A stretch of DNA of 38,359 nucleotides from a virus: IMG/VR virus record IMGVR_UViG_3300037189_008897, positions 1 to 38,359 of that record, one strand, 5' to 3'. Positions 48-22,643 of the stretch are shown here, one piece after another. The translations under genes and the position numbers were made by a program. The stretch's first letter is position 1. Every line of letters starts with the position of its first letter. The notes beneath the pieces were generated by a model. The model was given only the letters and a program-made list of their open reading frames with translations, was not told where the DNA came from and ran no database searches.

Positions 48-95
48 CCTTGATCCCCTGCAGCAGCTAACCCTGTTGCAGGGGATTACTCCACC
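48..95 (+). promoter_or_regulatory. Leader hairpin 1, upstream of the 46-aa membrane peptide
   Basis: A perfect 10-bp inverted repeat (ATCCCCTGCA at 53-62, TGCAGGGGAT at 77-86) encloses a 14-nt loop and ends nine bases before the ATG at 96. The 3' arm holds the only Shine-Dalgarno-like purine run (AGGGGA), so folding would hide it. The flank CCTTGATCCC (48-57) recurs exactly at 2772-2781 before another hairpin. No T-tract follows, so a leader structure is more likely than a terminator. Confidence 0.6.
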
Positions 96-236
96 ATGGA
101 AACCATAAACGCAATAATAACCTTCCTCGCATCCTATTCGGTCGTGACCCTCGCCTCTATGGTGTCGGTCGCTGTCCGTGTCTGGGTTGTCATCGAAGTC
201 ATCAAAGCCACATCAATCCTTAACTATATCAAGTAA
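96..236 (+). CDS. Small single-pass membrane peptide, 46 aa
   Basis: ATG at 96 opens a 46-codon frame ending in TAA at 234-236. The product starts METINAIITFLAS and has one hydrophobic segment at about residues 5-36, broken by one Arg, and a short polar tail (KATSILNYIK). The stop overlaps the next start by one base (TAATG), so the downstream gene is probably translationally coupled. That coupling and the immediately preceding hairpin are the main arguments that this is a real gene. No family is recognised. A membrane role such as host-envelope modification or lysis is only a guess. Confidence 0.45.
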   Translation: METINAIITFLASYSVVTLASMVSVAVRVWVVIEVIKATSILNYIK

Positions 237-418
237 TGAGCAACAACATAACAAGTCCAAGCAAAGTAAAGAAATACATCCTCGAGTTCGCCAAGGAGAA
301 CCGAGCACACGAGTTCACAAGGGTAAGTCAACTTACTCTCGACAAGGTAGAGGCAGCAGCACGTTCCGCAGCCCGAGCCGCCGTCACATCAGCACCATCG
401 AAAGGAAAAACACTATGA
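236..418 (+). CDS. Small phage protein of unknown function, 60 aa
   Basis: The frame starts at the ATG of a TAATG overlap and ends at a TGA that overlaps the next gene's ATG by four bases (ATGA at 415-418). The product has a helical, basic N-terminal half (SPSKVKKYILEFAKENRA), then FTRVSQLTLDKVEAA, an alanine-rich helix, and a C-terminal SKGKTL. I recall similarly patterned small phage proteins with a conserved FTRVS segment and a PSKGKT-like tail, which supports a real gene, but no function is known to me. Tight coupling on both sides suggests co-production with the metallopeptidase/VWA protein. Confidence 0.65.
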   Translation: MSNNITSPSKVKKYILEFAKENRAHEFTRVSQLTLDKVEAAARSAARAAVTSAPSKGKTL

Positions 419-1602
419 GTAACACCAGCACAAAACCACGTAAGAAAGCCAACGCCAACGACGAAGCCGCTAGGGTAGAGAAGTCCGTAGTCAAGATGGT
501 CCTCGACCATCCGTTCTTCGCCGCACTCGCCCTCAAGATGCGGGTCGTGCAGGACTACAAAGTCCCCACGTTCTGCGTCGACGGAGTCCACATGAAATAC
601 AATCCGGACTTCTGCGCCACGCTCGACGATACCGAACTGCTCACCGTGCTCGGCCACGAGGTCTTGCACTTGGCGTTCGGCCATCTGTGGCGCAAGGGTA
701 ATCGCAGCATGAAGAAGTGGAACTACGCCACGGACTACGTCATCAACAACTACCTCATGAAATACAATGAGGATGAGGTCGCCGCTGGTAGGGTCGGCCC
801 GTTCAAGCTACCGCAGGGTGGTTTGCTCGACCCGAAGTATGACGGCATGGCAGAGGAGGAGGTCTACAATCTCCTACCCGAGCCTCCCGAAGGTGAAGGC
901 GGCGGTGGCGGTGGTGATGGCGATGGCGGCATGGGTGACTTCACCGACCCAGTCGACGGCGAGGGAAACACCGAGGAGGACTGGCGTCAACGTGCAGTCG
1001 AGGGTGTCAACGCAGCCAAGCTCCGTGGTCGTGAGTCTGGCAGCATGACCCGCGCCATCGAGCGTCACCTCAAGGGCACACAAGACTGGCGCGAGATTCT
1101 CCGCGAGTTGTTGTCTGCTCCTGCCAACGATGACTACGACGAGACGCGGCCCGATCGCCGCTTCATGGAGGATGACATCTTCCTGCCAACGTTGTATAGC
1201 GAGCGTGTCGGAACGTTCGTCGTTGCCGTCGACACGTCCGGTTCGGTCACTCCCGACCTGCTCGACAAGTTCATGGCCGAGGTTCAATACTGCTTGGACA
1301 CCGTCAAGCCAGAGAAGATCATCGTCATAGACTGCGATGCCGCAATCAACCAAGAGCGTGAGTTCGCCTATGGCGATAACGTCCGCGACTTCACTCTCAA
1401 GGGTGGTGGTGGCACGGACTTCCGCCCTGTGTTCGACAGGGTCAAGTCTCTGGCAGACTCACCCGAAGCGGTGGTCTACTTCACCGATGGCTATGGTGCC
1501 TTCCCCGACAGCCCTCCCGATTACCCTGTGATCTGGGTGGACTACGGCGGCACCGACTATCCGTTCGGCGAGGTAGTTAGAATCAACAGCGCAGACAAAT
1601 AG
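415..1602 (+). CDS. DUF2201-type metallopeptidase/VWA-like protein
   Basis: This 395-residue protein combines a zinc-metallopeptidase-like N-terminal half with a von Willebrand A-like C-terminal half, as in DUF2201 family proteins. The zincin motif HEVLH is at residues 81-85 with another His at 90. A linker at about 160-178 is almost all Gly, Asp and Glu. A MIDAS-type motif DTSGS is at 273-277, followed by GGGGTDF and FTDGYG, the other expected VWA metal-site segments. The start at 415 is preferred over an in-frame ATG at 178, because 178 would read through the whole 236-418 gene in another frame and 415 forms an ATGA overlap. Family members pair with MoxR AAA+ ATPases in chaperone-like complexes. 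The role in a phage is unknown, and peptidase activity is inferred from the motif only. Confidence 0.85.
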   Translation: MSNTSTKPRKKANANDEAARVEKSVVKMVLDHPFFAALALKMRVVQDYKVPTFCVDGVHMKYNPDFCATLDDTELLTVLGHEVLHLAFGHLWRKGNRSMKKWNYATDYVINNYLMKYNEDEVAAGRVGPFKLPQGGLLDPKYDGMAEEEVYNLLPEPPEGEGGGGGGDGDGGMGDFTDPVDGEGNTEEDWRQRAVEGVNAAKLRGRESGSMTRAIERHLKGTQDWREILRELLSAPANDDYDETRPDRRFMEDDIFLPTLYSERVGTFVVAVDTSGSVTPDLLDKFMAEVQYCLDTVKPEKIIVIDCDAAINQEREFAYGDNVRDFTLKGGGGTDFRPVFDRVKSLADSPEAVVYFTDGYGAFPDSPPDYPVIWVDYGGTDYPFGEVVRINSADK

Positions 1603-1633
1603 TAACAATCAGACAAGCCATGAGTGTCTCGGG

Positions 1634-1687
1634 CCTGCCGACAGGTTCTCACACTACGATCCTTTGTTGTTGGGGATCGCCGTGAGA
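1634..1687 (+). ncRNA. Structured leader: two hairpins upstream of the 222-aa gene
   Basis: The 210-base gap 1603-1812 holds clear inverted repeats. CCTG/CAGG (1634-1637 and 1642-1645) closes a 4-nt loop. A nested hairpin pairs TCTCAC (1647-1652) with GTGAGA (1682-1687) outside and CGATCC (1657-1662) with GGATCG (1674-1679) inside. No T-tract follows either. It may be a structured 5' UTR, a processing signal or a small RNA. It matches no riboswitch class I can recognise. Confidence 0.4.
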
Positions 1688-1718
1688 TGTAGTCCTTCGG
1701 TCTTTCATTGACAGCGTA

Positions 1719-1760
1719 TCCTTCCGCTGCTGGCAAACCTTGGTAGAAGGAACTTAACCA
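1719..1760 (+). promoter_or_regulatory. Leader hairpin 2
   Basis: TCCTTC (1719-1724) pairs with GAAGGA (1746-1751) around a 21-nt loop, and ACTTAACCA follows directly. GGAACTTAACCA (1749-1760) is nearly repeated as GGACTTAACCA at 4243-4253, after another hairpin and likewise upstream of an A-rich leader and a start codon. The shared flanks group these hairpins as one family of leader elements. Confidence 0.4.
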
Positions 1761-1800
1761 CAAACACAAACACAAATACAAATACAAATACAAATACAAA
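1761..1800 (+). repeat. Tandem hexamer CAAA(C/T)A in a translation leader
   Basis: Two CAAACA units are followed by four CAAATA units and a partial CAAA, ending directly at the ribosome-binding site AAAGGAG (1798-1804). The tract has no G and cannot pair with itself, so it should keep the ribosome-binding region single-stranded. It resembles A/C-rich translational enhancers. The following GGAGATACACATATG is close to the phage T7 gene 10 leader as I know it. Confidence 0.75.
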
Positions 1801-1812
1801 GGAGATACACAT

Positions 1813-2481
1813 ATGAACGTTAGAATATCAGGCGAACTGCAGAGCGATGTCCGCTCGCATATCAACAGCATGAGACTCAAAGATCTCCAGCTTCAGCTGG
1901 GGTCTTCGGAACAAGACAAATTATTCTGCATCAGCGGCTCAAGCACAGAGCTTCTCAATCTGGTATGGGGTAAACACCTACACTTAAAGTCGCAGATGCC
2001 AACGGAATGGATGAAAGATCTATGCAAAGAATACAGGCCGCACATCTGGATTAGAGTTCAATGGGACCAACTTACAACGGAACCCAAGTCGAAGAAGTTT
2101 CAAGTATATGTCCTGCATGGGGGATCATTCTTAGTTCCACCGCGAATGCAGTCTGGTAGCGAATTCTCTGTTAGGAAAGAAGATCTTACCGGAGATCTAA
2201 AACGTATCAACGATCTAAACGATCAGTGGGATGAGCTTTGTGCGAAGTGGACGAAGATATCCTCGGATGTCATCACCTATCTTAAGTCAGCCAAGTCCCT
2301 CAACTCGGCCCTTAAGAACTGGCCCGAACTCAAGGCGTTCATCCCGCAGGAATACTTGGATCGTGTGGCTACGAAACCGGAGCGCACTGCCGAGCGGAAG
2401 AAAGCCGAGGAGGCTCTGGCCAACATCGACCGCAACCTCGCTGTTACCAGCGCGACCATGGTCAAGTTGGCTACCACATGA
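1813..2481 (+). CDS. Phage protein, possibly Nmad5-like, 222 aa
   Basis: This 222-residue protein has an N-terminal mixed alpha/beta region and a C-terminal helical half. The strong AAAGGAG ribosome site nine bases upstream fixes the start. The segment SLNSALKNWPELKAFIPQEY (about residues 160-180) resembles a motif I associate with the phage Nmad5 domain (putative nucleotide-modification-associated). The tail is a charged helix rich in Glu, Arg and Lys. No catalytic motif is evident. Its stop overlaps the next start (ATGA at 2478-2481). The enhancer-like leader suggests high expression. The family assignment is tentative; the gene itself is secure. Confidence 0.7.
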   Translation: MNVRISGELQSDVRSHINSMRLKDLQLQLGSSEQDKLFCISGSSTELLNLVWGKHLHLKSQMPTEWMKDLCKEYRPHIWIRVQWDQLTTEPKSKKFQVYVLHGGSFLVPPRMQSGSEFSVRKEDLTGDLKRINDLNDQWDELCAKWTKISSDVITYLKSAKSLNSALKNWPELKAFIPQEYLDRVATKPERTAERKKAEEALANIDRNLAVTSATMVKLATT

Positions 2482-2765
2482 GCGACCAAGAGCCAGTAGA
2501 TTCTACGGCGATGCTTCGCCTGTCAGTCATTCGCCTCATCCTAGCCAACAACTTCGATGACTGCGAAATAATAAAATGTCTGGATACAAAGACGGGGGAT
2601 ACATGCAACGTGCTGTTCCTCCCCGCTATGGATCCCGACGATGGTGACGTGTATATGACGCCAGCATTTGCAATCCCAGAATCAGATATATCTGAGCAGG
2701 AGAGTAGATACTTGCCAGTAGATACGTTACCAAGAACCAACCTAACCAACTTCAAGAATAACTAA
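2478..2765 (+). CDS. Hypothetical phage protein, 95 aa
   Basis: The start codon overlaps the preceding stop by four bases, so it is probably co-translated with the upstream Nmad5-like candidate. The product is acidic. It has an N-terminal helix (AMLRLSVIRLILANNFDDCEIIKCLD) followed by a beta-rich region with DTKTGDTCNVLFLPA and a proline-containing C-terminus. This layout recalls small phage proteins that I know only as domains of unknown function. No metal site, nuclease motif or membrane segment is seen. Confidence 0.7.
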   Translation: MSDQEPVDSTAMLRLSVIRLILANNFDDCEIIKCLDTKTGDTCNVLFLPAMDPDDGDVYMTPAFAIPESDISEQESRYLPVDTLPRTNLTNFKNN

Positions 2766-2771
2766 ATAATT

Positions 2772-2820
2772 CCTTGATCCCTTGAGCCGATGAGCCAATG
2801 CTTACGGCCCAAGGGGTCTC
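2772..2820 (+). promoter_or_regulatory. Leader hairpin 3, upstream of the DUF3150-type gene
   Basis: The arm at 2777-2789 (ATCCCTTGAGCCG) pairs with 2805-2817 with one A-C mismatch and one G-U pair, around a 15-nt loop. The preceding CCTTGATCCC is identical to 48-57. The stem differs from hairpin 1 yet remains paired, as expected for a conserved RNA shape. A G-poor leader (ACCCAAAAACACAAATACAC) with no Shine-Dalgarno sequence runs from the hairpin to the ATG at 2851. Confidence 0.55.
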
Positions 2821-2850
2821 TCCAACACGAACCCAAAAACACAAATACAC

Positions 2851-3738
2851 ATGAGCACAATACGTAATCAAGCAATGTTGACCAGTCTGTCTATCGGCCT
2901 GTTCAACCCCAAGAAAACCGACCGCAACGTTACACGTGAGGTCTTGATCAGCAAGAACGCATCGCATAACGCTGGTGCGTTCGTGAAGAATATTCTCCCC
3001 GAGGAGAGTATCAAACCCATCCAGTCCGAAGCCGCCGCGTTGCGGACTTGGTTCTATCAGAACACCCTGCCATGGGGTGACGATGCCGTGCGTCTGTTGC
3101 CAGTCGCGCAGTGGGACAAGTTCACCGAAGACCTCCGAGCACGTCTCGCTTCGCTGAACTCCATGTTCGACAACTTCTGCAACAGCTACGAGCAGCACCG
3201 AGACAAGGCTCTCCTGCAACTCGGAGCGTTGGCGAACCCTGCGGACTACCCGCCGCTGTCGGAAATACGTAGCAAGTTCTACATAAGGGTGGCCTACCAC
3301 CCGATGCCCGACAGCCGCGACTTCCGCTTGGATGACATGCCAGAAGAAGCGATCGCACAGATCCGTGCCGAGACCGACCTTCGAGTTGCCGATGCAATCA
3401 ACGAGGCTCGCAACGATCTGTATCACCGCTTGGCCGACAGGTTGCAGCACATCATTGCTCGGATGGCCGAGGCCAACAAGAAGCGCGAAGGCACACGTCT
3501 CCACGCTTCGTTGATAAGCAACTTGCGGGAACTTTGCGAGTTGATCCCTAGCCTCAACGTCACCAAGGACGAGGAGCTTGAAGCTCTACGTGTCCGCGCC
3601 ATGCAGGAGATCGGTGTCTACGATATCGACGAAGTCCGCGACAACCCAGATGTCCGCGCCGAACTCAAGTCCAAGGCCGAGGACATCCTCGCCGCCATGG
3701 GCTTTGGTGGTAACAACGCTGTGCAGAAAGCGGCTTAA
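2851..3738 (+). CDS. DUF3150-type protein
   Basis: This mostly helical 295-residue protein matches the DUF3150 pattern as I know it. Cues are the LGLF-like start (TSLSIGLFNPKKTDRNVT), the early K/R-rich segment, a central LPW element (NTLPWGDDAVRLLP at about 70-83) followed by a long helix, and paired Leu/Arg helices near 190-235. In phages this family often neighbours a MoxR AAA+ ATPase and a DUF2201/VWA protein, and the latter lies 1.2 kb upstream here. It is likely a partner of that complex; its molecular job is unknown. There is no Shine-Dalgarno sequence; initiation probably relies on the A-rich leader after hairpin 3. Confidence 0.75.
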   Translation: MSTIRNQAMLTSLSIGLFNPKKTDRNVTREVLISKNASHNAGAFVKNILPEESIKPIQSEAAALRTWFYQNTLPWGDDAVRLLPVAQWDKFTEDLRARLASLNSMFDNFCNSYEQHRDKALLQLGALANPADYPPLSEIRSKFYIRVAYHPMPDSRDFRLDDMPEEAIAQIRAETDLRVADAINEARNDLYHRLADRLQHIIARMAEANKKREGTRLHASLISNLRELCELIPSLNVTKDEELEALRVRAMQEIGVYDIDEVRDNPDVRAELKSKAEDILAAMGFGGNNAVQKAA

Positions 3739-3742
3739 TAAC

Positions 3743-4009
3743 ATGAAGAAGACAAAACAATACTACGTAATGCAGTACGAGGACGTTGCCAGAGAACGTC
3801 TATACTTAGCCAAGGGGCCTTTCGATTCCATCGTTTCTGCCGAAGAATGGTTGAAAGAGGAAGCCAAAGACCTGCTGGAAAACTCGGGCGAACCCGTGAG
3901 TCGCAAAGACTGTGAATCTTGGGCTGGTCCTAGTCTTGTGGTCGAAGTGGTCAGGCAGTATCAACAGATACCGTCCTACCGAGTCGACATTAAACTGAAA
4001 CGGCTATAG
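3743..4009 (+). CDS. Hypothetical protein, 88 aa
   Basis: ATG at 3743 lies four bases after the preceding TAA; an open extension to 3578 would run inside the DUF3150-type gene and is rejected. The product alternates beta strands (KQYYVMQYEDVARERLYLA) with an acidic helix (SAEEWLKEEAKDLLENSG) and a basic C-terminus (VDIKLKRL). A small alpha/beta fold is plausible. No family recognised. Likely co-transcribed with the DUF3150-type gene. Confidence 0.6.
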   Translation: MKKTKQYYVMQYEDVARERLYLAKGPFDSIVSAEEWLKEEAKDLLENSGEPVSRKDCESWAGPSLVVEVVRQYQQIPSYRVDIKLKRL

Positions 4010-4015
4010 GCAACT

Positions 4016-4039
4016 ATGAGCCTTAATTTAAGGAGGTGA
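4016..4039 (+). other. Possible 7-codon minigene ending in tandem AGG codons
   Basis: ATG at 4016 opens MSLNLRR-stop, whose two terminal Arg codons AGG AGG form the core of the Shine-Dalgarno sequence for the next ORF. Short ORFs ending in rare tandem AGG codons can stall ribosomes and sequester tRNA-Arg in some phages. Here it may simply be a chance frame over a strong ribosome site. Confidence 0.25.
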
Positions 4040-4046
4040 TGCTTCC

Positions 4047-4175
4047 ATGCTACAACAACCGATAACGGTGCATCCACGTCTACGACAGGCTATATCCTTC
4101 GTGATAATGGTGCAGTCGATTACACCTCTAGTAGCTCTCGATAGATGTCCGGGGGTTGCGTATCCGGGTAACTAA
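4047..4175 (+). CDS. Short ORF or leader peptide, 42 aa
   Basis: ATG at 4047 is preceded by TAAGGAGGTGAT (4029-4040), a 12-base perfect match to the complement of the usual bacterial 16S rRNA 3' end. The 42-residue product (MLQQPITVHPRLRQAISFVI...) has a weakly hydrophobic middle and ends RCPGVAYPGN. Its stop falls at the end of a hairpin (4148-4171) that recurs 66 bases downstream. A strong ribosome site, a short peptide and hairpins before the next gene would fit a regulatory leader peptide. No family recognised. Confidence 0.45.
   Translation: MLQQPITVHPRLRQAISFVIMVQSITPLVALDRCPGVAYPGN
4148..4171 (+). promoter_or_regulatory. Leader hairpin 4 (first copy of a duplicated element)
   Basis: CCGG at the 5' side pairs with CCGG at the 3' side around GGGTTGCGTAT, and TAACTAAACAC follows. 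A diverged second copy lies at 4214-4236. Over about 23 bases the copies differ by five substitutions, all transitions, and one deleted base. Confidence 0.4.
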
Positions 4176-4179
4176 ACAC

Positions 4180-4201
4180 GCAAGTTGTATGCAAGTTGCA
4201 T
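4180..4201 (+). repeat. Tandem 11-bp direct repeat between two hairpins
   Basis: GCAAGTTGTAT (4180-4190) is immediately followed by GCAAGTTGCAT (4191-4201), one mismatch in eleven. It lies between the two copies of the duplicated hairpin and 69 bases before the next start codon. It could be a protein-binding site or a short slippage duplication. Confidence 0.5.
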
Positions 4202-4213
4202 AGTTCCATAGGA

Positions 4214-4253
4214 TCCGAGGGCCGCGCATTCGGTAATAACGCGGACTTAACCA
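4214..4253 (+). promoter_or_regulatory. Leader hairpin 5 (second copy) upstream of the 78-aa gene
   Basis: CCGA (4215-4218) can pair with TCGG (4230-4233) in the same position as CCGG/CCGG in copy one, a compensated change. Alternatively CCGCG (4222-4226) pairs with CGCGG (4240-4244). GGACTTAACCA (4243-4253) then matches the flank of hairpin 2. An A-rich stretch without a Shine-Dalgarno sequence follows to the ATG at 4270. Confidence 0.45.
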
Positions 4254-4269
4254 ATAGAAACATATACCC

Positions 4270-4506
4270 ATGAAAACAGACGATAGACGCCTCATGCTGG
4301 CAGGACACGCCCTCTCGGGACTGCTAGCCTCGCAACCAGAAAATAAGGGTTGGAACATCGACGCCCTGTCGGTAGTCTCCTTGAAGATTGCCGATACCAT
4401 TATCAGTATGGCATCTTTGGAGAAGCTACCGGAACTCAAAGCTCCGGACGATTCCCAAATGGAATTAAATCTGGAGACCAAGAACGATGAGGAACTACAA
4501 AGCTGA
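4270..4506 (+). CDS. Hypothetical phage protein, 78 aa
   Basis: The 78-residue product begins MKTDDRRLMLAGHALSGLLAS and continues with WNIDALSVVSLKIADTIISM, then an acidic tail. I know the pattern LAG.AL.GLLA...W....A...AD from small phage proteins annotated only as hypothetical, so the gene is credible. It lacks a Shine-Dalgarno sequence; the ATG is preceded by AATAGAAACATATACCC. Its last 20 bases overlap the HNH gene in another frame, implying coupled translation. No enzymatic motif is visible. Confidence 0.7.
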   Translation: MKTDDRRLMLAGHALSGLLASQPENKGWNIDALSVVSLKIADTIISMASLEKLPELKAPDDSQMELNLETKNDEELQS

Positions 4507-12923: not shown

Positions 12924-13037
12924 ATGGATACCAAAACTAAAGTCAAACTAGCCACTGAAATCGTAGCAACCGTAGTCATTACTCCAATACCTTTTTTACT
13001 ACTTATTCTGTTGATTACGTTCCTGTACCGTCTTTAG
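12924..13037 (+). CDS. Possible plus-strand membrane micro-protein, 37 aa
   Basis: ATG at 12924 opens MDTKTKVKLATEIVATVVIT followed by PIPFLLLILLITFLYRL. This is a polar, basic start and one long membrane helix, a believable membrane-protein pattern. It lies on the strand opposite its neighbours, fills the 78-base gap between two leftward genes and runs 39 bases into the 3' end of the giant gene. No ribosome site or rightward promoter was found. Confidence 0.3.
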   Translation: MDTKTKVKLATEIVATVVITPIPFLLLILLITFLYRL

Positions 13038-16000
13038 GAAGATACTCCTACGAGCCTTGCCCTCTTCGATACTTGGCGCATTCCTGAGCGTAGTCTCCAA
13101 GGTAATCGGAGATACTCTGAGTCTTGGAATTCTACCAGCCACAATACTGGCTGCATCTACATCGCTCAGCGTCTCGCTCAAGATACGTATAGCCGCTGGT
13201 TTAGGTACGCCTAGTCTAATTGCAGCCGAGTATGCTTTGATCATGTCATCGTATAGCTTATCGTGAGCAAATACCGCGTTGTCGTAAGCAGCGGGAATAT
13301 CGCTTAAGTCGACGCTTCCACGACTGTTAAGAACACTTGTCAGTAGTTGTTTCGCTTCAGATTGATTAGCCAAGAATGCCCTAGTCTTATTAGCTAAGCT
13401 AGTCTGGGCATCCACTTCACCCATTCGCTGGCCAGTAAAAATACCGGATAATTCGTTAGATAGGTCATAGCTCTTGGCTTGTTTAGACACCTGACCAGTG
13501 GCTGCTTTGTACACACGCCTACCCGCTCCACTAATAACTCCGGGTGCGAGCATGTTAGCGAGATACCCAAGTTTTGTGGCAGTAATATTCAGCGGTGTAT
13601 CTTGTTCGTTCCAAATGGGGCCACCCTGTGCTGTGCGATTTCTGGCCAAGTCCATGATGGTACCGACAAACAACTGCTCGGATGCAAATGGATCGATCAT
13701 CTGTGTAGCCGCATCCATAAACGCTTCGCCAACTCCACGCTCTCCACGCAACGCTCTAAAGAATGCAATGGCAGTCTCGGCCCTCATCTGTTGGGGATCC
13801 AGATAACTCAAATTTAAATAAGTAGCTTTCCCACCTTCGCGCTGTCCGATGTAGATCAATTGATCGTTTTTCTCATACTCGGGAACAAACTGACGCATAG
13901 CTTCATCGTCATCATCGTCATATCCAAATATAGCTTTGGCAGTAGCTGCCGCTACCGGAAGCAACGCAGCAGAGACCAAAGTTCCAGTAAGTGCTTTATA
14001 GCCATTCATCTGCATTGCAGAGTTTTTAGTCTCCCTACCAACTCGAATATCTTCTGCCGCTATACCAATTGTATTGGCTCCAGTTCTAAGAACTTCACTA
14101 GTCCACGTAATAAATGGAGCAATAAACGGAGTTCTACGAATCGACCGAGTAAGTTCTGGCGACATACTATATGTAGGCAGTTTATTTCGAACACGATTGG
14201 CCGCTTCCTGTTGAATCTGTGTTTCGCTCCAATCTGGATGAGCGTTCCGTTGGGATTTCTTCTCTTGTTCGTAGGCGAAGACTTTCCAGAAATCATCGAT
14301 TCCTTGGTAAATATTAGCTGCTTTATCGAAGACTGTTTTTGTAATACCAGTTGAAGTTTTTGCCAGACTCTTGAATTTTTGCTGCGCTTTGGTGTCTTTC
14401 CATAGAGAGTTTATTCCCGGCTGATCCATACTAGCTTGGATCATTTCTTTAAATAGACCGCTCTCAACATTGTCTCCAATTACGCCATTGCGTACATATT
14501 CTTCTCTTAGGGCCTGCACACCTTCATCAAATTTTAATCCTGTGTTAGCCAAAGCCGCACGTACAGCCAGCTTGGCATTCTTCATCATTCGTATTGGGTC
14601 AGTGTAACTGACAAACCCACCGCTCAAGATCAACAACGGGTTACCCAAAAAGTTTCTAATATATCCCTGTGGGAAGTTACCCACAGTCTTCATAGCCATG
14701 GTCCAAGCTGTAAGACCGGAGAACCATTTAGCCCATCCCTCTACAGTAGTAGTATCCCGCAAAGAGCGGAAAGCATCGCGGACATCTTTGGGAGCGTAAG
14801 CTTCTTTAAGTGGGTTGTATTCGCCGACAGTACCCGGAGGGTATATAGGTCGAAATCCTGCGGGAGCTTCAGTTCCTTCTGATACACCTTGTTTCCAGAT
14901 GTACCCACCCTTGATACCAGCATCGAGTAACTCGCGACCTGTATCTGTTGCGGCCATAAATGCCGACATCTTAGCGACAGACTTAACAAAGTTTGTCTCG
15001 TTATCTTCTATTTGCCCCCATAGTTCACGAATCTCTTTTGGTATTTGACCACGCTCTTTTATTATATCTAGCTTACGCTGTCCCGGAAGTAGACCAGTCA
15101 AAAGTAAATTATTCTCTTTGTCATCAGCCACACTCAAGTAGTCGACCAACATGTTATGAGCCTTAAGTGCGATATCATCTTTGTACGCTGAAGCTGCCTT
15201 TAGCGAATCATCGATGCTCATGTCGATCCCGTATTGTTTCTTCTCCATGCGGAGATCGCGAGCTATGTCAGCCTGAGCTTTCATGCGGAATAATCTATCC
15301 GCCGCATTCAAAATTCTCTCGTGCTCCGATCCCGGTTCTGGTTTCTCGAACAGTCTCTTCCACTCGGGGTTGTCGAAAATTTGGTAGGATCTATGGAGGT
15401 AAACATTTCGGTTAGCCTCAACGACGAGCTTCATTTTTGATGTGAGGTAGTTCCCCTCAAGGAGTTTAGTACCCAAGCTATCTATGGTATCCCGCATTTC
15501 ACGGATTACAGATACAAGTTCACTGGGTAGTTTACTCTGGGCATCGGCAATTCTGGCTTCGGCTGTCTTGATGTTCTCTTCCATGAACTGACGTACCAGT
15601 GCGGCTCTATCTTTATCACTAGCCGCCGCTTTTAGCTGGCGGAACTGATCGTCGGTGTATTTGTTCTCCGTGGATCCAAGTGCTGTATTTAGGATATCCG
15701 TAGGTATATCCGTATCTTTCTTATACAACTTACCTAGAACACGTTTGTATTTCTTGACTAGAAATTCTGCTTTGGTGAGATCGGCGGCAATCTTAAACTT
15801 CTTGCGAAGTTGGATATCGCGTTGCTGCGGAGTGAACTTACCAGACGATCCGAGACCACCAGTCTTCAGCGCGGTCTCGCTGTATCGCCCAGTGAACATA
15901 GCTTTTAGGTTACTCCACAGACCGCCTTTCTCCGGACCACCTAGCATACCCTCGCGGATACGTGTGTCGGGAGAGTATGAATAAAAATTAAATGTCCCCT

Positions 16001-19000
16001 GTACAAGTTTACCATCTTCACTAAGTTTTCCAGCATCGTTAACTTGAGCCAATGTACGCTCGGCCTTGGGAACTTCGACCTTCGCGATCCGTCTAGCGGC
16101 ATTCTCGTCACTTTTCGGCAGTGCTTCCGCGATAGCGTATTTTATCTCGGTAAATCGTTTATCATTAATTACCACATATCCGTCTTGATCAATCAACCTA
16201 CTTATAACGTTGCGGACAGCTGTAGCCGTATTGATTGCCCGTGTGCCCGTCTTTTTTCCTCCGCGACCGGGAAGTTTAACTATGAATTGCTTAAGTTCTT
16301 CCCCACCTTTGTAGCTTTCAAAAATGTTACCAACAAGATCGGCGTACTCAGGAGGAGCTTCACGCAATTCGAGGTCACTCTCTGGATAGACAGACTCTCC
16401 GTAAGCCATAGAGTCTAGTTCCCTAACCCCATCGCGAAGGTTCTTGAGTTGCTCGCGTAACGCAGGGTTACGCAGAGTCATAACGTGCGTTTCAAATCTA
16501 CGCCATATAGTTTTAATACTAGCAAGAATGCGCGCCAATAGACTTTTCTGCACACCCCTCAACTCTACCATTTCTTGAACGGATTCTCCGCGCTTCATGC
16601 GTTCAGCTAACATGGTCAGATATTCCATCGCCAAGTTGACTTGGCGATCCTCGGACAAAAACTCGTCGCGTGCGGCTAACCTATCGGCCTCGCTGGCAAA
16701 TATGACTTGGTTAAAGTAAAGGTCAGCAGCCAGTTCTTTCTGAGCTGTATTCAGACTTTTCCCTATCTCTTTCAACAGCTTCACACCGATCTTCCGTAGT
16801 AATCCAAGATGGAAGTATTCGTGCATTCCTGCCGCACGGATAAACGTAGCGGCCTGACTATCGTCCATGTTGCGTATAGCTTCGGCTATACGTTGTGGAT
16901 TCACAAATAGTGTGCGGCTTAGAGCATCATTAATGTGCATGCGCCCCCTACCATCCGTGATAATTACTTCACGGATTCCGGGATAGTGCTTACTGATAAC
17001 CTCTTTAACAATACGTAGGGCTCGACCGGACTCCTCGGTAGTGGCTGGATTTTCACTAGGAACTGCCGTTTCCGGATCAGCCGAGTAGTGGTTCTTTGAC
17101 GCACCTTTTTCAAAAGCCGCTGTGGATGCAAGCGGATTCTTGTCTAGATCACGCAGGACAGACATCGTGAAGTTAGATACTTCATCTTGTGAAAATCCCT
17201 TGAGTTTGCCATCTTTGGCCAGTTTACGGCGCAAAGTAAGCATTTCACGGGCATGTTGTTTGATGTAAGCCTCAGACCCACGATTGAGTTCTGGGTCAGC
17301 TGAAATAAGTCGGGCATGGCGCAGCGTGGTCTGACGATACACAAGCTCGTCGTAGTCAAGCATGTTGCGGAGGTTGTCGCCTTTGGTTTTGGAAACACGC
17401 TTCGGTTTTTCAACCACCCCTAGGCTCGGTTCATCGATAGCTTCCTCTGCTGGCATGGCACCCTCAAAATCCTCCAGCATGGTTGATATAGACGGTTTAT
17501 CTCCGTATACCTTGAACCCATCTTTAAATGGTGCATCGAGAGACACAACCTGTGGGCGGTATCTCTGCCTATCCAACAGCTTTTGTATAGCTTGCGAGAA
17601 AGCTCTTCTGGGGGTCACGTTCCTACCGCCCTTGCGGAAAGACTCTGCATAAAGAATGCCCGCAATTTGAGTCACTCTTGAGTCATCAACATTGGCGTTA
17701 GTCTCCCATGTGTTAAAAAATTTTATGGCGTTTTCGATGAGTTTTACTTGATCCCCACTCAACGGTTTCTGCCTTGAGACAACCTCGCTCTTTTCGTTTC
17801 TACTTACTCCATCAATGACATCGGCAATTTCAATCAACTCCTCGCGCAGCGGCTTGAAGTCGGTGTCCATAACTGTTTGCGCCTCTATGGCCGCATCCAC
17901 CAGTTGACCCGGAGCAGTCACTCGTGTTCCGCCATTGATCGCCGACACGGCAGAAGTAACTTCTCCGGTATTCGGATCAAAAGTAATTCCCGGAGCCACT
18001 TTCTGACGCATGTCCTCTGGTACAACCAGTTTGCGCCCTTGATCCAATTGACGGGCTGTAGTTTCGCTGTCGTTTACAAAAACATCCTCAAACGACACGT
18101 TTAGATTACCAGATAAGTATTCGACAGCATCGAACAAAATACCCTCGGCACCATCGGCTTCTACGAATCGTGCGTAATCGAAAAGTTCACCTTCGGTAGA
18201 CGGAGGCGCAACTAGTAACTCAGGATTAGGATCTGGAGAACTCGCCGTTAACGCAAACTCCATTACCTGCTGTCTTGTTTTATCAATTAATGTATTTAGT
18301 CGACTTTCAAGGTTAGCGGATTCTTTTTGGAGACTGCCGAGAAGTTCTTGAATTTCTTTTGTCTTAATTACTACACCGGGTCTACCTTCACCGGGCGCAC
18401 CTTGCATAGGTTTGTTACCGTACTCCGTAACAGTTAACTCAGAAACCGGAATTACCCTTGTATCTGTTTTAGAAAATTCAACTGGTACACCCAAATTTTT
18501 ACCGCCAACTACAAGTGAGCGAGGAGGTAGGGGGAAAGGTTTAGCAATTACTACTCCAGACTCGCCCTTAGATGTTATAACTTTACTGCCAGCCCAACGT
18601 AATCCTAACTCTCCTACTACGGTCGGGGATGTTTCTCTTTCGGAAAGAGAAAGCAGACGTTGACGAGTCTCTCGTATTTTCGCGTCTATTTCGTCTTTCT
18701 TTTCAATGAGACGCTGGATTTTCGGTAAACTCTTTGCAACTTTTTCGCTCATAGCAGCCGGGGCAACTGCTTCTGGACGTTCAATAACTAGCGTTCCAAC
18801 AACATCCCCAATATCATCTTTTATCTCATACGATCCGTTCGGGAGAGTTGCTAGATAGGCGCGGACTTTAGTTCGATTGTTGAAGATGGTATCCTCAATC
18901 TCCTCTTGCGTAGTGTTTGGATCGGGAGATTCTAAAACTAGATCAGCTGCATTTGTCAGCGAGCCCGGACTTGTAACCGTTGTCGAGATGCGATTTGGAA

Positions 19001-22000
19001 TGCGTAGCTCCCCGTCCAAGTCGGAAGTGAACTCAATGGTCTCAGGATTTGTGATACCGAGATCATTAGCCAGCTGGGTCTGCGCGTTCCGCTGAATAGA
19101 CTTAAGCGTAACGATAAGCCCGGAAGTTTCTTTGTCCGGTCGGATCTGTGTTCTGGCTTCCTTGAGTTGTTTCTTCGTGCGCCCTATGTAGTTATAGAGT
19201 CGCTTGATAACAGTACCCATGGAAGGGACGGCCTGCGTTTTACGGGCCTGCTCATAGAGGGACGCTTCTTCTTTGGAATCCGGGATTACTTGAGTCGGGG
19301 CAGCGACTCCTTGCTGCAGATCCGTGTTCGCTTGGTCCATGACTTCACGAACAAAATTCTTGAGTGACTTACGACCATTCCACCCCTTGCCTTTCATGTC
19401 CGCTTCGATCTCATCGAAGGAACGGCGAATGGTGCGAACCCCAGAATCGCTAGCTTCTTTGACAAGGTTCTGGCGGTATTCGATCAGACCTCCGGGCATA
19501 ACTCCCTCGGTTCTTTGTGGCGGTGTTATCTGTACCTGCGGACGCTCGCCTTCCGGTGCAGGGGCTAGCGGAAGTGTAGGTTCGGTTGTTGGGGTGGGGA
19601 TTGTAGTTGATTTGGTGCGCGAAGTAATAGGAACTGACCCTATACCACCCCTTTCGGATGCTCGCTTGGCATACTCCCTAGCCTGCTCTTCCGTCTCAAA
19701 ACTTTCATGTGTTAGTGACTCGCTACCTTGAAATATCGATACACGCCATTTCTTTTCTGGCTGACCCTGTGTAACAGCCCCAAGCTGTTCTGCTTCTGGG
19801 TCTGTAGTAGTTTCTCTTACCTGACCTTCTAAAGTATTCTTAGAAACAATAAATTTATTAGGACTTCCAGAAAGAAGCTCGCCAGTTTCCGGATCTCTTC
19901 TTTCGTAGGCAAAAGGAGCGGAAACTGTAGGAACTGCGGGAGTAATAGTAACCTGCGGACGCTCACCAGTCGGAGCCGGGGTCAGCGGCAAAGCAGCGGT
20001 GCGCTCCTCAAGCGGCCTCAACTCCGGAGTCTGCGCACGGGCGGTATTCCATGCTTCCTGCAAGTAATCTTTAATGCCATCCCACATGTCGGGGAAGTCT
20101 TGTTGGACACGAGCCGACCAGTCGGAGAAGCGGACGATACCTTCCTTGGCATAGTTGACCGCGAGTTTAACAGCCAGAAACGCCAACTCAGGATCGGCAC
20201 CCATGGATGCCTGCCCAAGTTTACCGCGCATCTGAGAGCGAATATCCTCCCGTTCAGTTTTGAGTTCCTCCAGTCTGGCTAGACGTTGCTGCGCTTTCTT
20301 GAAAGCTTCGTCGGTTGTTGCAGCAGCTGGTTCGGTGATGGCGGGAGCCGCGCCTGTTTCCGTTACGCTCGGAGCCGGGGTCTGCGCTCTGCGCGTACGT
20401 TCAGCGTTAATCTGCTGGAGTGCGTTGTTAGCCTGTGCTATTTGAACTTCATCCGTAGCTGTCTCGGACTTCTGTTGTTGGATAGTCTCTTCCTGATCCA
20501 GTTCGTCTTCGGTAAGGGCTTGCAAGCCTGTTGGGGCTGGAGCAGTTGGAGCGGCAGGTGTAGTGGCGGGAGCGGGAAAAGCAGGTGTAGTGGCGGGTGC
20601 GGCAGGGGCAGGTGCTACACCCTCGGCAGCTTGGAACAAAGGTAACCCTGCAGCAGGGGTGAACGGTGTCAGAGTTTCGCCGCGTTGACGTTTCTCCATC
20701 AATACAGTCGGTAAAGTCTTACGACCAATATCACCCAATCCGTTTTCTGTAAGCCACCCCATCACTTGTTCTGGGTTTTGCACTTCGGAAAGGCTACGGG
20801 TTCCCTGAGGAACTACGTTGTTGTCTGCAAGGAGCTTTAGAACTCCAACAGCAGAATTGAGACCCATCTTCTCCTCAACAAATTTACGGAAAGTATCTTG
20901 TTTTGGTAGTCCAAAAGTAGCCTCGCGCTCCTGTTCGACCTGCTCCGGAGTACGTAGTAAAGCAGGCGATGGTGCAGCAGTAACAGGTGTGGGTGCTGCG
21001 GTAACGACTGGAACGGGGGTAGCAGCAACGGGAGCAACCGGGGCGGGAGTGGTGGTAGCGGGAGCGGGTGCTGCGGTAACGACTGGAGCGGGGGCTGCGG
21101 CCTGTGCAGCCTGTTGCCTACGGAGATATTCGGCACGGGCGTTATCCAGAGCAAGTTGTAAAGATGCCCCGGATTGCGGGCTAATCTTTTGAGCCTCTAC
21201 AATAAGAGTCCCTAACTCCTTGCCCTTGGCTACCAAGTCTTCGTCCGTGAGTTTCTGCAGAGCTTCGGGTTTATACTCATCAGCCACCTCAATGACTGCA
21301 GCAGTCCCGGCAACGGTTGGCGAAGGTGTGACAGCAATCGGAGGTTTCTGCTCTTTGGCTGCGGCTTCTGTGGCGGCTTTTTCTTCTGCGGTTGGCTCAA
21401 TAGTCAAAGCACGCAGACGTTCTTGATCGGTGCTCTCCGTCATAGACTTGACGGTAGTATCGCGCACAGCTTTAGCGGTCAGCGGTGCATTGTTTTCTTG
21501 GAGCGTTTGTTCAACTTTAAGCGTCTCAGAAATCTTCTTGTCCTCGACAGCCTTCGCCGCACCCATATTTGACGCTATCTTACCCTGTACGATTTGTAGA
21601 CCGCCCGGAGCCGCTTCTCCCATGATTTCACCAAATACTGCTTTACCCTGTATAGGCTCCCCAGCAACCAAGGATCCTGCAACTTCCCCGCCACCACCCA
21701 AAGCAGCTTGTATCCCTAGTTCGGTAGTAGCCTCACGTGTCGGAGTCTTAACCGCCGCCTGTGCAACTCTGCCGAGTGGCGAGGTAACGGCTGCGCGCAC
21801 TACAGATTTCTCCGGAGCTTTTAGTGCAGTCTCAACAATCTTCCCCACACGACCGCCAATTCCAGCAGAAACAGCCTCAAACGCCGCGACAGGAATACCG
21901 TGCTCAAAAGCTTTAGTCTTGGCATCATCAACAAGTTTTTGATTCGAGAAGAACTGGACGATACTGTCCGGATTCTTCATATCCATCCCAGCATTTTGTA

Positions 22001-22643
22001 GTTCCTCCAGAACTTTGCTACCGTATTCAGTAGCTAAAGATCCAGCAAATGTTCCGGTGATTTGACCAGCAGTAAACCCAGCGGCAGTGCCTAAACCGGG
22101 AACTACTGAACCAACTCCAGCACCAGCTAGACCTGCCGTTGTACCAGCAGCCAACGCTGGAACGCTACCAGCCAAGCCTTCGGCAACGATATTCGTCGTT
22201 ACTTCGATAGGATTTGTAGCAAATGCTTTAACCGCGTCCCACCCTTCGGCCTCTTGGTACGCCTTGTACCCCGGAGCAAGGTTACGAGCTTGCTTGTTGT
22301 ATTCGAGTTTGGAGATTTCCTTGGCTTCGTCTGGAGTGACGCCACCAGTAACTGCCAAAGCTTGCTGCGAGGAATCCCAAGCATTAGCTGCTGAGTTTAT
22401 GATACCCTCAATAGTCCCGACTTCTTTGGGGACGAGAGATGTGAACTCTTCATTTTTCTTGGCTACGAAACTCTGGAAGTTGTTGCGCGGCGTATCGTCG
22501 ATAAATCCGCCGAAGGAGTTTCCGTATTCTTTAACTTTGGTTGCCCAGTTGTTGAATACTTGCTGTTTGACTTCGGGAGTCAGTTGTTGAAACCGATCGT
22601 CATTCTCAATCTCGCCCCATGGTTGAGGTTTTCGAATAGCCAT
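12999..22643 (-). CDS. Giant virion-type polyvalent protein, 3,214 aa
   Basis: This single 9.6-kb gene resembles phage large polyvalent proteins that are packaged and ejected with DNA. In order it holds a polar N-terminus; a Gly/Ala-rich hydrophobic segment at about 155-270 (glycine-zipper-like); several Pro/Ala/Thr-rich linkers between about 510 and 1000; mixed domains; a zincin motif HEYFH at 1941-1945 in AAGMHEYFHLGLL; helical regions; hydrophobic or membrane-like helices near 2640-2670 and 2895-2915; and a C-terminal part with IAPFITWTSEVLR and GYDDDDDEA that recalls LPD38-type domains. Likely roles are internal virion/ejection protein with a peptidase-like domain, but transglycosylase or polymerase motifs were not found. 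It starts three bases after the 528-aa gene's stop. The function is inferred. Confidence 0.85.
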   Translation of the reverse strand: MAIRKPQPWGEIENDDRFQQLTPEVKQQVFNNWATKVKEYGNSFGGFIDDTPRNNFQSFVAKKNEEFTSLVPKEVGTIEGIINSAANAWDSSQQALAVTGGVTPDEAKEISKLEYNKQARNLAPGYKAYQEAEGWDAVKAFATNPIEVTTNIVAEGLAGSVPALAAGTTAGLAGAGVGSVVPGLGTAAGFTAGQITGTFAGSLATEYGSKVLEELQNAGMDMKNPDSIVQFFSNQKLVDDAKTKAFEHGIPVAAFEAVSAGIGGRVGKIVETALKAPEKSVVRAAVTSPLGRVAQAAVKTPTREATTELGIQAALGGGGEVAGSLVAGEPIQGKAVFGEIMGEAAPGGLQIVQGKIASNMGAAKAVEDKKISETLKVEQTLQENNAPLTAKAVRDTTVKSMTESTDQERLRALTIEPTAEEKAATEAAAKEQKPPIAVTPSPTVAGTAAVIEVADEYKPEALQKLTDEDLVAKGKELGTLIVEAQKISPQSGASLQLALDNARAEYLRRQQAAQAAAPAPVVTAAPAPATTTPAPVAPVAATPVPVVTAAPTPVTAAPSPALLRTPEQVEQEREATFGLPKQDTFRKFVEEKMGLNSAVGVLKLLADNNVVPQGTRSLSEVQNPEQVMGWLTENGLGDIGRKTLPTVLMEKRQRGETLTPFTPAAGLPLFQAAEGVAPAPAAPATTPAFPAPATTPAAPTAPAPTGLQALTEDELDQEETIQQQKSETATDEVQIAQANNALQQINAERTRRAQTPAPSVTETGAAPAITEPAAATTDEAFKKAQQRLARLEELKTEREDIRSQMRGKLGQASMGADPELAFLAVKLAVNYAKEGIVRFSDWSARVQQDFPDMWDGIKDYLQEAWNTARAQTPELRPLEERTAALPLTPAPTGERPQVTITPAVPTVSAPFAYERRDPETGELLSGSPNKFIVSKNTLEGQVRETTTDPEAEQLGAVTQGQPEKKWRVSIFQGSESLTHESFETEEQAREYAKRASERGGIGSVPITSRTKSTTIPTPTTEPTLPLAPAPEGERPQVQITPPQRTEGVMPGGLIEYRQNLVKEASDSGVRTIRRSFDEIEADMKGKGWNGRKSLKNFVREVMDQANTDLQQGVAAPTQVIPDSKEEASLYEQARKTQAVPSMGTVIKRLYNYIGRTKKQLKEARTQIRPDKETSGLIVTLKSIQRNAQTQLANDLGITNPETIEFTSDLDGELRIPNRISTTVTSPGSLTNAADLVLESPDPNTTQEEIEDTIFNNRTKVRAYLATLPNGSYEIKDDIGDVVGTLVIERPEAVAPAAMSEKVAKSLPKIQRLIEKKDEIDAKIRETRQRLLSLSERETSPTVVGELGLRWAGSKVITSKGESGVVIAKPFPLPPRSLVVGGKNLGVPVEFSKTDTRVIPVSELTVTEYGNKPMQGAPGEGRPGVVIKTKEIQELLGSLQKESANLESRLNTLIDKTRQQVMEFALTASSPDPNPELLVAPPSTEGELFDYARFVEADGAEGILFDAVEYLSGNLNVSFEDVFVNDSETTARQLDQGRKLVVPEDMRQKVAPGITFDPNTGEVTSAVSAINGGTRVTAPGQLVDAAIEAQTVMDTDFKPLREELIEIADVIDGVSRNEKSEVVSRQKPLSGDQVKLIENAIKFFNTWETNANVDDSRVTQIAGILYAESFRKGGRNVTPRRAFSQAIQKLLDRQRYRPQVVSLDAPFKDGFKVYGDKPSISTMLEDFEGAMPAEEAIDEPSLGVVEKPKRVSKTKGDNLRNMLDYDELVYRQTTLRHARLISADPELNRGSEAYIKQHAREMLTLRRKLAKDGKLKGFSQDEVSNFTMSVLRDLDKNPLASTAAFEKGASKNHYSADPETAVPSENPATTEESGRALRIVKEVISKHYPGIREVIITDGRGRMHINDALSRTLFVNPQRIAEAIRNMDDSQAATFIRAAGMHEYFHLGLLRKIGVKLLKEIGKSLNTAQKELAADLYFNQVIFASEADRLAARDEFLSEDRQVNLAMEYLTMLAERMKRGESVQEMVELRGVQKSLLARILASIKTIWRRFETHVMTLRNPALREQLKNLRDGVRELDSMAYGESVYPESDLELREAPPEYADLVGNIFESYKGGEELKQFIVKLPGRGGKKTGTRAINTATAVRNVISRLIDQDGYVVINDKRFTEIKYAIAEALPKSDENAARRIAKVEVPKAERTLAQVNDAGKLSEDGKLVQGTFNFYSYSPDTRIREGMLGGPEKGGLWSNLKAMFTGRYSETALKTGGLGSSGKFTPQQRDIQLRKKFKIAADLTKAEFLVKKYKRVLGKLYKKDTDIPTDILNTALGSTENKYTDDQFRQLKAAASDKDRAALVRQFMEENIKTAEARIADAQSKLPSELVSVIREMRDTIDSLGTKLLEGNYLTSKMKLVVEANRNVYLHRSYQIFDNPEWKRLFEKPEPGSEHERILNAADRLFRMKAQADIARDLRMEKKQYGIDMSIDDSLKAASAYKDDIALKAHNMLVDYLSVADDKENNLLLTGLLPGQRKLDIIKERGQIPKEIRELWGQIEDNETNFVKSVAKMSAFMAATDTGRELLDAGIKGGYIWKQGVSEGTEAPAGFRPIYPPGTVGEYNPLKEAYAPKDVRDAFRSLRDTTTVEGWAKWFSGLTAWTMAMKTVGNFPQGYIRNFLGNPLLILSGGFVSYTDPIRMMKNAKLAVRAALANTGLKFDEGVQALREEYVRNGVIGDNVESGLFKEMIQASMDQPGINSLWKDTKAQQKFKSLAKTSTGITKTVFDKAANIYQGIDDFWKVFAYEQEKKSQRNAHPDWSETQIQQEAANRVRNKLPTYSMSPELTRSIRRTPFIAPFITWTSEVLRTGANTIGIAAEDIRVGRETKNSAMQMNGYKALTGTLVSAALLPVAAATAKAIFGYDDDDDEAMRQFVPEYEKNDQLIYIGQREGGKATYLNLSYLDPQQMRAETAIAFFRALRGERGVGEAFMDAATQMIDPFASEQLFVGTIMDLARNRTAQGGPIWNEQDTPLNITATKLGYLANMLAPGVISGAGRRVYKAATGQVSKQAKSYDLSNELSGIFTGQRMGEVDAQTSLANKTRAFLANQSEAKQLLTSVLNSRGSVDLSDIPAAYDNAVFAHDKLYDDMIKAYSAAIRLGVPKPAAIRILSETLSDVDAASIVAGRIPRLRVSPITLETTLRNAPSIEEGKARRSIFLKTVQERNQQNK

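Follow-up and report, generated by a model that had tools for sequence, protein, structure and literature searches.

In phage T4, a small H-type pseudoknot lies in the mRNA leader of gene 32, a gene of DNA metabolism, and the DUF2800 and DUF3268 RNA motifs are structured RNAs found 5' of phage-type genes. The short pseudoknots of the STAXI motif (RF01728), known from Enterobacteriales, usually occur as three repeats and carry UUCG loops (PMC2864571, Weinberg 2010). Moreover, type II hammerhead ribozymes (RF02276) have been proposed to cleave long transcripts of phages into mRNAs of single-gene length (PMC3088659). Here, we analysed a 38.4-kb viral fragment from an IMG/VR record (IMGVR_UViG_3300037189_008897; 38,359 nucleotides, hereafter the window), whose left end carries rightward genes preceded by structured leaders. 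A preliminary description had taken five leader hairpins (H1 to H5, between positions 48 and 4253) for copies of one cis-acting RNA element that is repeated and may form an undescribed class. The five sequences are indeed present where they were placed. However, alignments separate them into three kinds (H1/H3, H2 and H4/H5), so that a single family covering all five is rejected, and the proposal holds for H4/H5, which recur with covariation 5' of varied genes in >100 viral contigs, and not for the set of five. What had been missed is that H2, H4 and H5 are knotted rather than simple hairpins, and that H4 and H5 represent one structure in two copies.

A compact pseudoknot family in viral contigs

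H4 and H5, called PK4 and PK5 below, are tandem H-type pseudoknots of one compact family:

4147..4183, + strand: PK4 (H4), with stem S1 at 4147-4152/4164-4169; covariation
4215..4244, + strand: PK5 (H5), 25 nt before the ATG at 4270; covariation

PK4 consists of an S1 core CGG/CCG (4150-4152/4164-4166), a GGG first loop L1 (4153-4155) and a second stem S2, TTGCG/CGCAA (4156-4160/4179-4183). The corresponding parts of PK5 are S1 CCGA/TCGG (4215-4218/4230-4233), L1 GGG (4219-4221) and S2 CCGCG/CGCGG (4222-4226/4240-4244). Both fit the descriptor S1-GGG-N(C/T)GCG-YAT-S1'-L3-S2' of the home group, that is, the phages related to the window, and the general family follows the formula S1 (3 bp, any sequence)-GGG-N·CGCG-CAU-S1'-L3-CGCG·N', in which the short L3 mostly ends in AA. 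Folded as simple hairpins, H4 and H5 only reach the stability of shuffled sequences (z of +0.4 and 0.0). As pseudoknots, the 14 home-group copies show six pairs with changes on both sides and a covariation score of 0.379, against 0.115 after shuffling (reached in 0/500 shuffles), and this signal collapses once the partner columns are offset by one to three positions.

The pairing is also kept far outside the home group. A first search pattern, with one free pair per stem, matched 86 viral contigs, and among 70 distinct matches the free pair was complementary in 68 for S1 and in 67 for S2. With S1 left wholly free, a second pattern gave at least 120 matches; among the matches listed, 114 of 125 distinct hits had three complementary S1 pairs. 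When the matches listed were reduced to a nonredundant set of 50 clusters by flanking sequence, all three S1 pairs were Watson-Crick in 46 clusters (shuffle mean 10.7, maximum 18 in 2000 shuffles) and the free S2 pair was kept in 47 (24.7 shuffled). In the same set, the four column pairs with the highest mutual information are exactly the four predicted pairs. The next outward position of S1 pairs in just 14 of the 50 clusters, and S1 of the general family is therefore 3 bp long. The edges of the element are sharp at 27-28 nt, and conservation falls off abruptly in the flanks, except for a frequent A immediately 3'. In a local scan with S2 left free, nearly all stems read N(C/T)GCG, and patterns with altered loop motifs found 0-12 matches against 102 for the original, counts that are biased by the fetching of the scanned loci with the pattern itself. 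The loops and the stem core thus appear to be constrained in sequence beyond pairing. The tandem arrangement is seen in the window group and in contig L182, most other copies being single. The pair in L182 (7716-7790), which belongs to an unrelated phage, has a longer third loop in its second member, like that of PK4.

The family is thus spread over unrelated viral contigs, and it is rare in cellular genomes: the pattern was present in 5/388 and 1/300 of those sampled from two phyla. Many other cellular matches were GC-rich chance occurrences, which we discarded for want of S1 or S2 complementarity. Among isolate phages, searched with short BLAST queries, the sole convincing match was the Methanosarcina virus MetMV (MK170447), with a perfect copy 5' of a gene (L143:3000-3026). 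On reading, the matches in Familton and AP1 lacked the structure and were rejected. The match in JustBecause was a partial one of 20 nt, and matches in plasmids were likewise partial. The covariation and the recurrence 5' of phage genes that the preliminary description had named beforehand as support were therefore found for H4/H5.

Membership of the leaders and pseudoknots in Rfam was rejected on covariance-model searches, which gave no gathering match to Rfam 15 in the window, none at the leaders even with E values of up to 5, and no family at the pseudoknot sites of 43 loci (part of them searched at the gathering threshold only). A description of the motif was not found in the open literature, a 2017 list of 224 RNA candidates being left out of this comparison. 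Altogether, the data suggest that the family is a widespread undescribed signal by which phages handle their gene messages.

Gene context and proposed function

To describe the gene context we used a sample of 141 distinct copies. An upstream gene lies nearby in 88 copies (nonredundant by C-terminus), of which 59 start 3-12 nt after its stop codon, with a mode of 5-6 nt, and the S1 core typically lies 5-9 nt 3' of the stop of a co-directional gene. PK4 follows this rule, its core beginning 5 nt after a TAG at 4142-4144, and PK5 is its downstream tandem copy. The next ATG comes at a median of 18.5 nt downstream and within 5-40 nt in most copies. The genes on both sides run with the element in 45 copies and against it in three, a ratio that is only indicative because it comes from a crude gene caller; 57 of 128 copies overlapped an ORF from this caller, mostly in antisense. 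Clustering of the flanking proteins gave 74 groups downstream and 80 upstream, and consequently no single autoregulated protein is evident. RecT, Sak4, exonuclease VIII, helicases, RusA, PDDEXK, SSB-like, DUF2800, DUF932 and GP88 proteins were recognised among the neighbours, and copies often stand in recombination or replication operons. Finally, three contigs with the pseudoknot also carry a type II hammerhead elsewhere (L205:61-119; L101:4827-4885, with a score slightly under the Rfam gathering score; L026:6989-7050, minus strand). Each of these hammerheads begins no more than 2 nt 3' of a stop codon, with a leader and then an ATG downstream, and RF02276 gave no match at the pseudoknot sites.

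The data show the fold of the family, its orientation with the mRNA, its place between genes, its spread and its rarity in cellular genomes, and the function is proposed from these. We give about even chances to the reading that the tandem copies are placed between co-directional genes of one transcript most likely to delimit cistrons. As the particular function, intercistronic mRNA processing or end definition is a plausible assignment that we propose tentatively from sequence and position. The pseudoknot would act in cis on the polycistronic mRNA, folding once the upstream gene has been transcribed. It might then cleave itself, be cut by a nuclease or shield the 3' end of the upstream message, and the downstream gene would be left with a short A/C-rich leader, a mode of action also proposed for hammerhead ribozymes in prophages. 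We slightly favour processing or end definition over translation control because the element keeps a more constant distance to the stop codon than to the start codon, and because hammerheads occupy the same niche in three contigs. Several points weigh against it. The copies also lie near the next ATG, which fits translation control equally; no catalytic centre was recognised in the pseudoknot, and a self-cleaving RNA of 27 nt would be exceptionally short. The comparison with hammerheads comes from three contigs only, 12 further loci being without a hammerhead. In addition, the GGG and CAU loops and the CGCG core were preset by the search patterns, their conservation being measured only by the local scan and in the 14 home-group copies. 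A bolder version, in which the 27-nt pseudoknot would be a new tiny self-cleaving or nuclease-guiding RNA, placed after stop codons by phages and an archaeal virus to cut polycistronic messages into single-gene mRNAs and interchangeable with type II hammerheads, seems unlikely to us.

The nearest competitor is control of translation, in which the pseudoknot would bind the 30S subunit, a ribosomal protein or a phage RNA-binding protein and so set initiation at the downstream gene, a case to compare with the T4 gene 32 leader pseudoknot; we regard it as possible and nearly as likely as processing, given that the element also ends near the ATG. It would explain the ATG at 5-40 nt in most copies, the many ATGs that lie within 5-12 nt and lack a Shine-Dalgarno sequence, and the frequency of SSB-like and recombination genes as neighbours, and the sharing of the family by very different viruses would suggest a universal machinery or a viral factor. 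However, the spacing is tighter to the stop codon than to the ATG. Shine-Dalgarno sequences precede 30% of the pseudoknot-led genes, a frequency equal to the background of 30%, and replacement of the Shine-Dalgarno sequence by the pseudoknot is rejected on this ground.

A small-molecule riboswitch or a sensor of a host signal is improbable: fixed loops and a fixed stem beside a variable one do resemble a binding pocket, but the genes that follow are for the most part diverse phage DNA-metabolism genes that share no metabolite, the pattern is rare in the sampled cellular genomes, and neither a terminator nor a sequestration arm was seen. We attach equally little weight to an element acting at the DNA level, such as a recombination or replication site or a single-stranded DNA fold. 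The rearrangement of genes and leaders between relatives and the neighbouring recombination genes would agree with it; however, the orientation that follows the genes and the fixed position after the stop both fit an mRNA, and some copies contain G-U pairs.

Viral recoding signals show a similar stop-to-pseudoknot spacing, of 5-9 nt, and the mode of 5-6 nt found here would suit a stimulator of stop-codon readthrough or frameshifting. This explanation is very improbable, since TAA is the main stop codon (50/88), in-frame extensions are short (median 20 codons, other ORFs 25), and in seven copies a further stop codon follows directly. An origin as chance hairpins or as intrinsic terminators, which the shuffle-like stability of H4 and H5 as single-sequence hairpins might have suggested, has practically no standing and is already refuted for H4/H5, H1 and H2. 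Covariation and recurrence speak against it, and no consistent U-tract stands 3' of the copies listed.

Lineage-specific leaders and neighbouring genes

The remaining leader structures and the genes at the left end of the window are as follows:

51..88, + strand: H1, 16-bp hairpin (51-66/73-88) with loop CTAACC; fold z and both-side changes
about 1611..1751, + strand: H2 element, with a 5' hairpin, a variable insert and a pseudoknot; covariation
2776..2818, + strand: H3, two-tier hairpin with CCTTGA just 5', leader of the DUF3150-type gene at 2851
4031..4054, + strand: conserved box AAGGRGGTGATGC...CATGCTAC, near-identical in ten of ten relatives by alignment
4046..4144, + strand: 33-codon ORF in frame 4046, under purifying selection and lacking an in-frame start codon
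96 (start), + strand: small membrane protein gene
418-1602, + strand: DUF2201 VWA/metallopeptidase protein gene
1813 (start), + strand: Nmad5-like protein gene, Pfam match under the cut-off
2478, + strand: gene
2851-3738, + strand: gene, DUF3150 being the annotation of a distant phage homologue
3743 and 4487, + strand: genes
4270..4506, + strand: 78-aa gene 3' of PK5, with no Pfam or PHROG family

For comparison we used ten contigs of related phages, whose proteins of the 2851 gene are 68-100% identical. H1 lies between the stop of an upstream gene (40-42) and the gene at 96. It folds with -28.2 kcal/mol, and all 16 pairs are kept among four sequences, two of them with compensatory changes on both sides. 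H3 (stem 2776-2784/2810-2818 plus inner stems) folds with -28.4 kcal/mol. A diverged two-tier hairpin stands in its position, after a CCTTGA-like sequence and before the same gene, in L006, L007 and L019-L021, and an alignment with diverged homologues in seven relatives shows three pairs with both-side changes. Stability beyond dinucleotide shuffles was borne out for these two hairpins (z of -7.3 for H1 and -5.8 for H3) and not for H2 (-1.4, within the shuffle range), H4 or H5. H1 and H3 were found only in this phage group and are unrelated to the H4/H5 family. An A/C-rich leader without a Shine-Dalgarno sequence precedes the ATG at 2851.

The H2 hairpin first noted forms the 3' portion of a longer element. 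Its 5' hairpin (1611-1615/1625-1629, loop AGCCATGAG) reads AGACA/TGTCT in the window and GGGCA/TGCCC in L006/L007. The pseudoknot has S1 CAGCG/CGCTG (1712-1716/1725-1729), S2 TCCTTC/GAAGGA (1719-1724/1746-1751) and a conserved L3, CTGGCAAACCTTGGTA; in relatives, S2 varies as CCCCTT/AAGGGG, CCCGTC/GACGGG and CCCGCC/GGCGGG-type. Over 16 pairs, 97.7% of the alignment cells are paired, six pairs show both-side changes, and the covariation score is 0.350 against 0.171 shuffled (0/500 reach it). We rejected the idea that the H2 family is widespread: under relaxed settings, scanning of viral contigs yielded the home group and L144 and L145 only, and in these two the flanks lack complementary arms, so that we judged them chance matches. 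A leader of CAAACA/CAAATA repeats (1758-1812) precedes the ATG at 1813. H1/H3 and H2 would be lineage-specific leader structures of the same operon, with a putative regulatory role.

The shared motifs reported for the leaders were confirmed, with CCTTGATCCC common to H1 and H3 and GGA(A)CTTAACCA 3' of H2 and H5. Near relatives retain CTTGATCCC, except in H1 of L003/L004 (CTTGGTCCC), and the GGA(A)CTTAACCA motif is absent from several relatives. The idea that purine runs in the 3' arms act as ribosome sites fails for H2, which has a separate AAGGAGATACACATATG downstream, and for H3, whose run is >30 nt away from the start codon; it may apply to H1, whose arm is near the ATG. Among the relatives, the leaders are shuffled relative to the genes, moving with them or independently. 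In L003/L004 the order is VWA gene, H3, 2851-type gene, then H2 and 1813-type gene, and in L006/L007 H3 comes immediately after H2. L003 also has a GP88-like gene between PK4 and the 4270-type gene and lacks PK5 (L003:8519-9240 against window 4147-4270), as if this interval had been replaced.

The TAG preceding PK4 ends the ORF at 4046-4144. Synonymous changes are in excess (P 0.002-0.08 by randomisation in five pairs) and indels are multiples of three; a second frame, from ATG 4047, is likewise open in ten of ten relatives. The fit of its stop to the pseudoknot position rule supports the ORF as a real gene, using non-standard initiation or a frameshift. The conserved box contains AAGGRGGTGATG, extended in the window to TAAGGAGGTGAT (4029-4040), the complement of the 16S rRNA 3' end.

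Elsewhere, the protein of 418-1602 carries the PHROG 1314 label HNH endonuclease, which looks wrong beside its Pfam matches to a DUF2201 metallopeptidase and a VWA-like domain. The window also holds a 3214-aa ORF on the minus strand (12999-22643).

Comparison with known systems

As an mRNA pseudoknot with sequence constraint that is found in >100 viral contigs and seems to be missing from Rfam, the family would represent a common unstudied signal in the partitioning or translation of phage DNA-metabolism operons. It occurs in bacteriophages as well as in a Methanosarcina virus, which suggests that its function either resides in the RNA itself or depends on conserved machinery, and its size of about 27 nt makes it easy to synthesise, probe and mutate.

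The DUF2800 and DUF3268 motifs have different structures, and neither was matched at the pseudoknot sites scanned against Rfam. The T4 pseudoknot serves a single protein from its place 5' of gene 32, whereas the present family precedes many unrelated genes and lies near the upstream stop. Type II hammerheads (RF02276; PMC3088659) share the intercistronic niche after the stop codon, in the same contigs, and have a proposed role as cutters of polycistronic RNA; however, they differ from the pseudoknot in fold and sequence, and the latter is without a known catalytic core. No Rfam STAXI match was obtained in the window or the loci searched, and the copies described here differ from that motif in being mostly single, in their GGG and CAU loops and in their hosts. 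Nevertheless, in shape and neighbourhood the closest published counterpart of the family is STAXI, itself a short pseudoknot that is found in tandem beside ssb and further DNA-handling genes of mobile elements.

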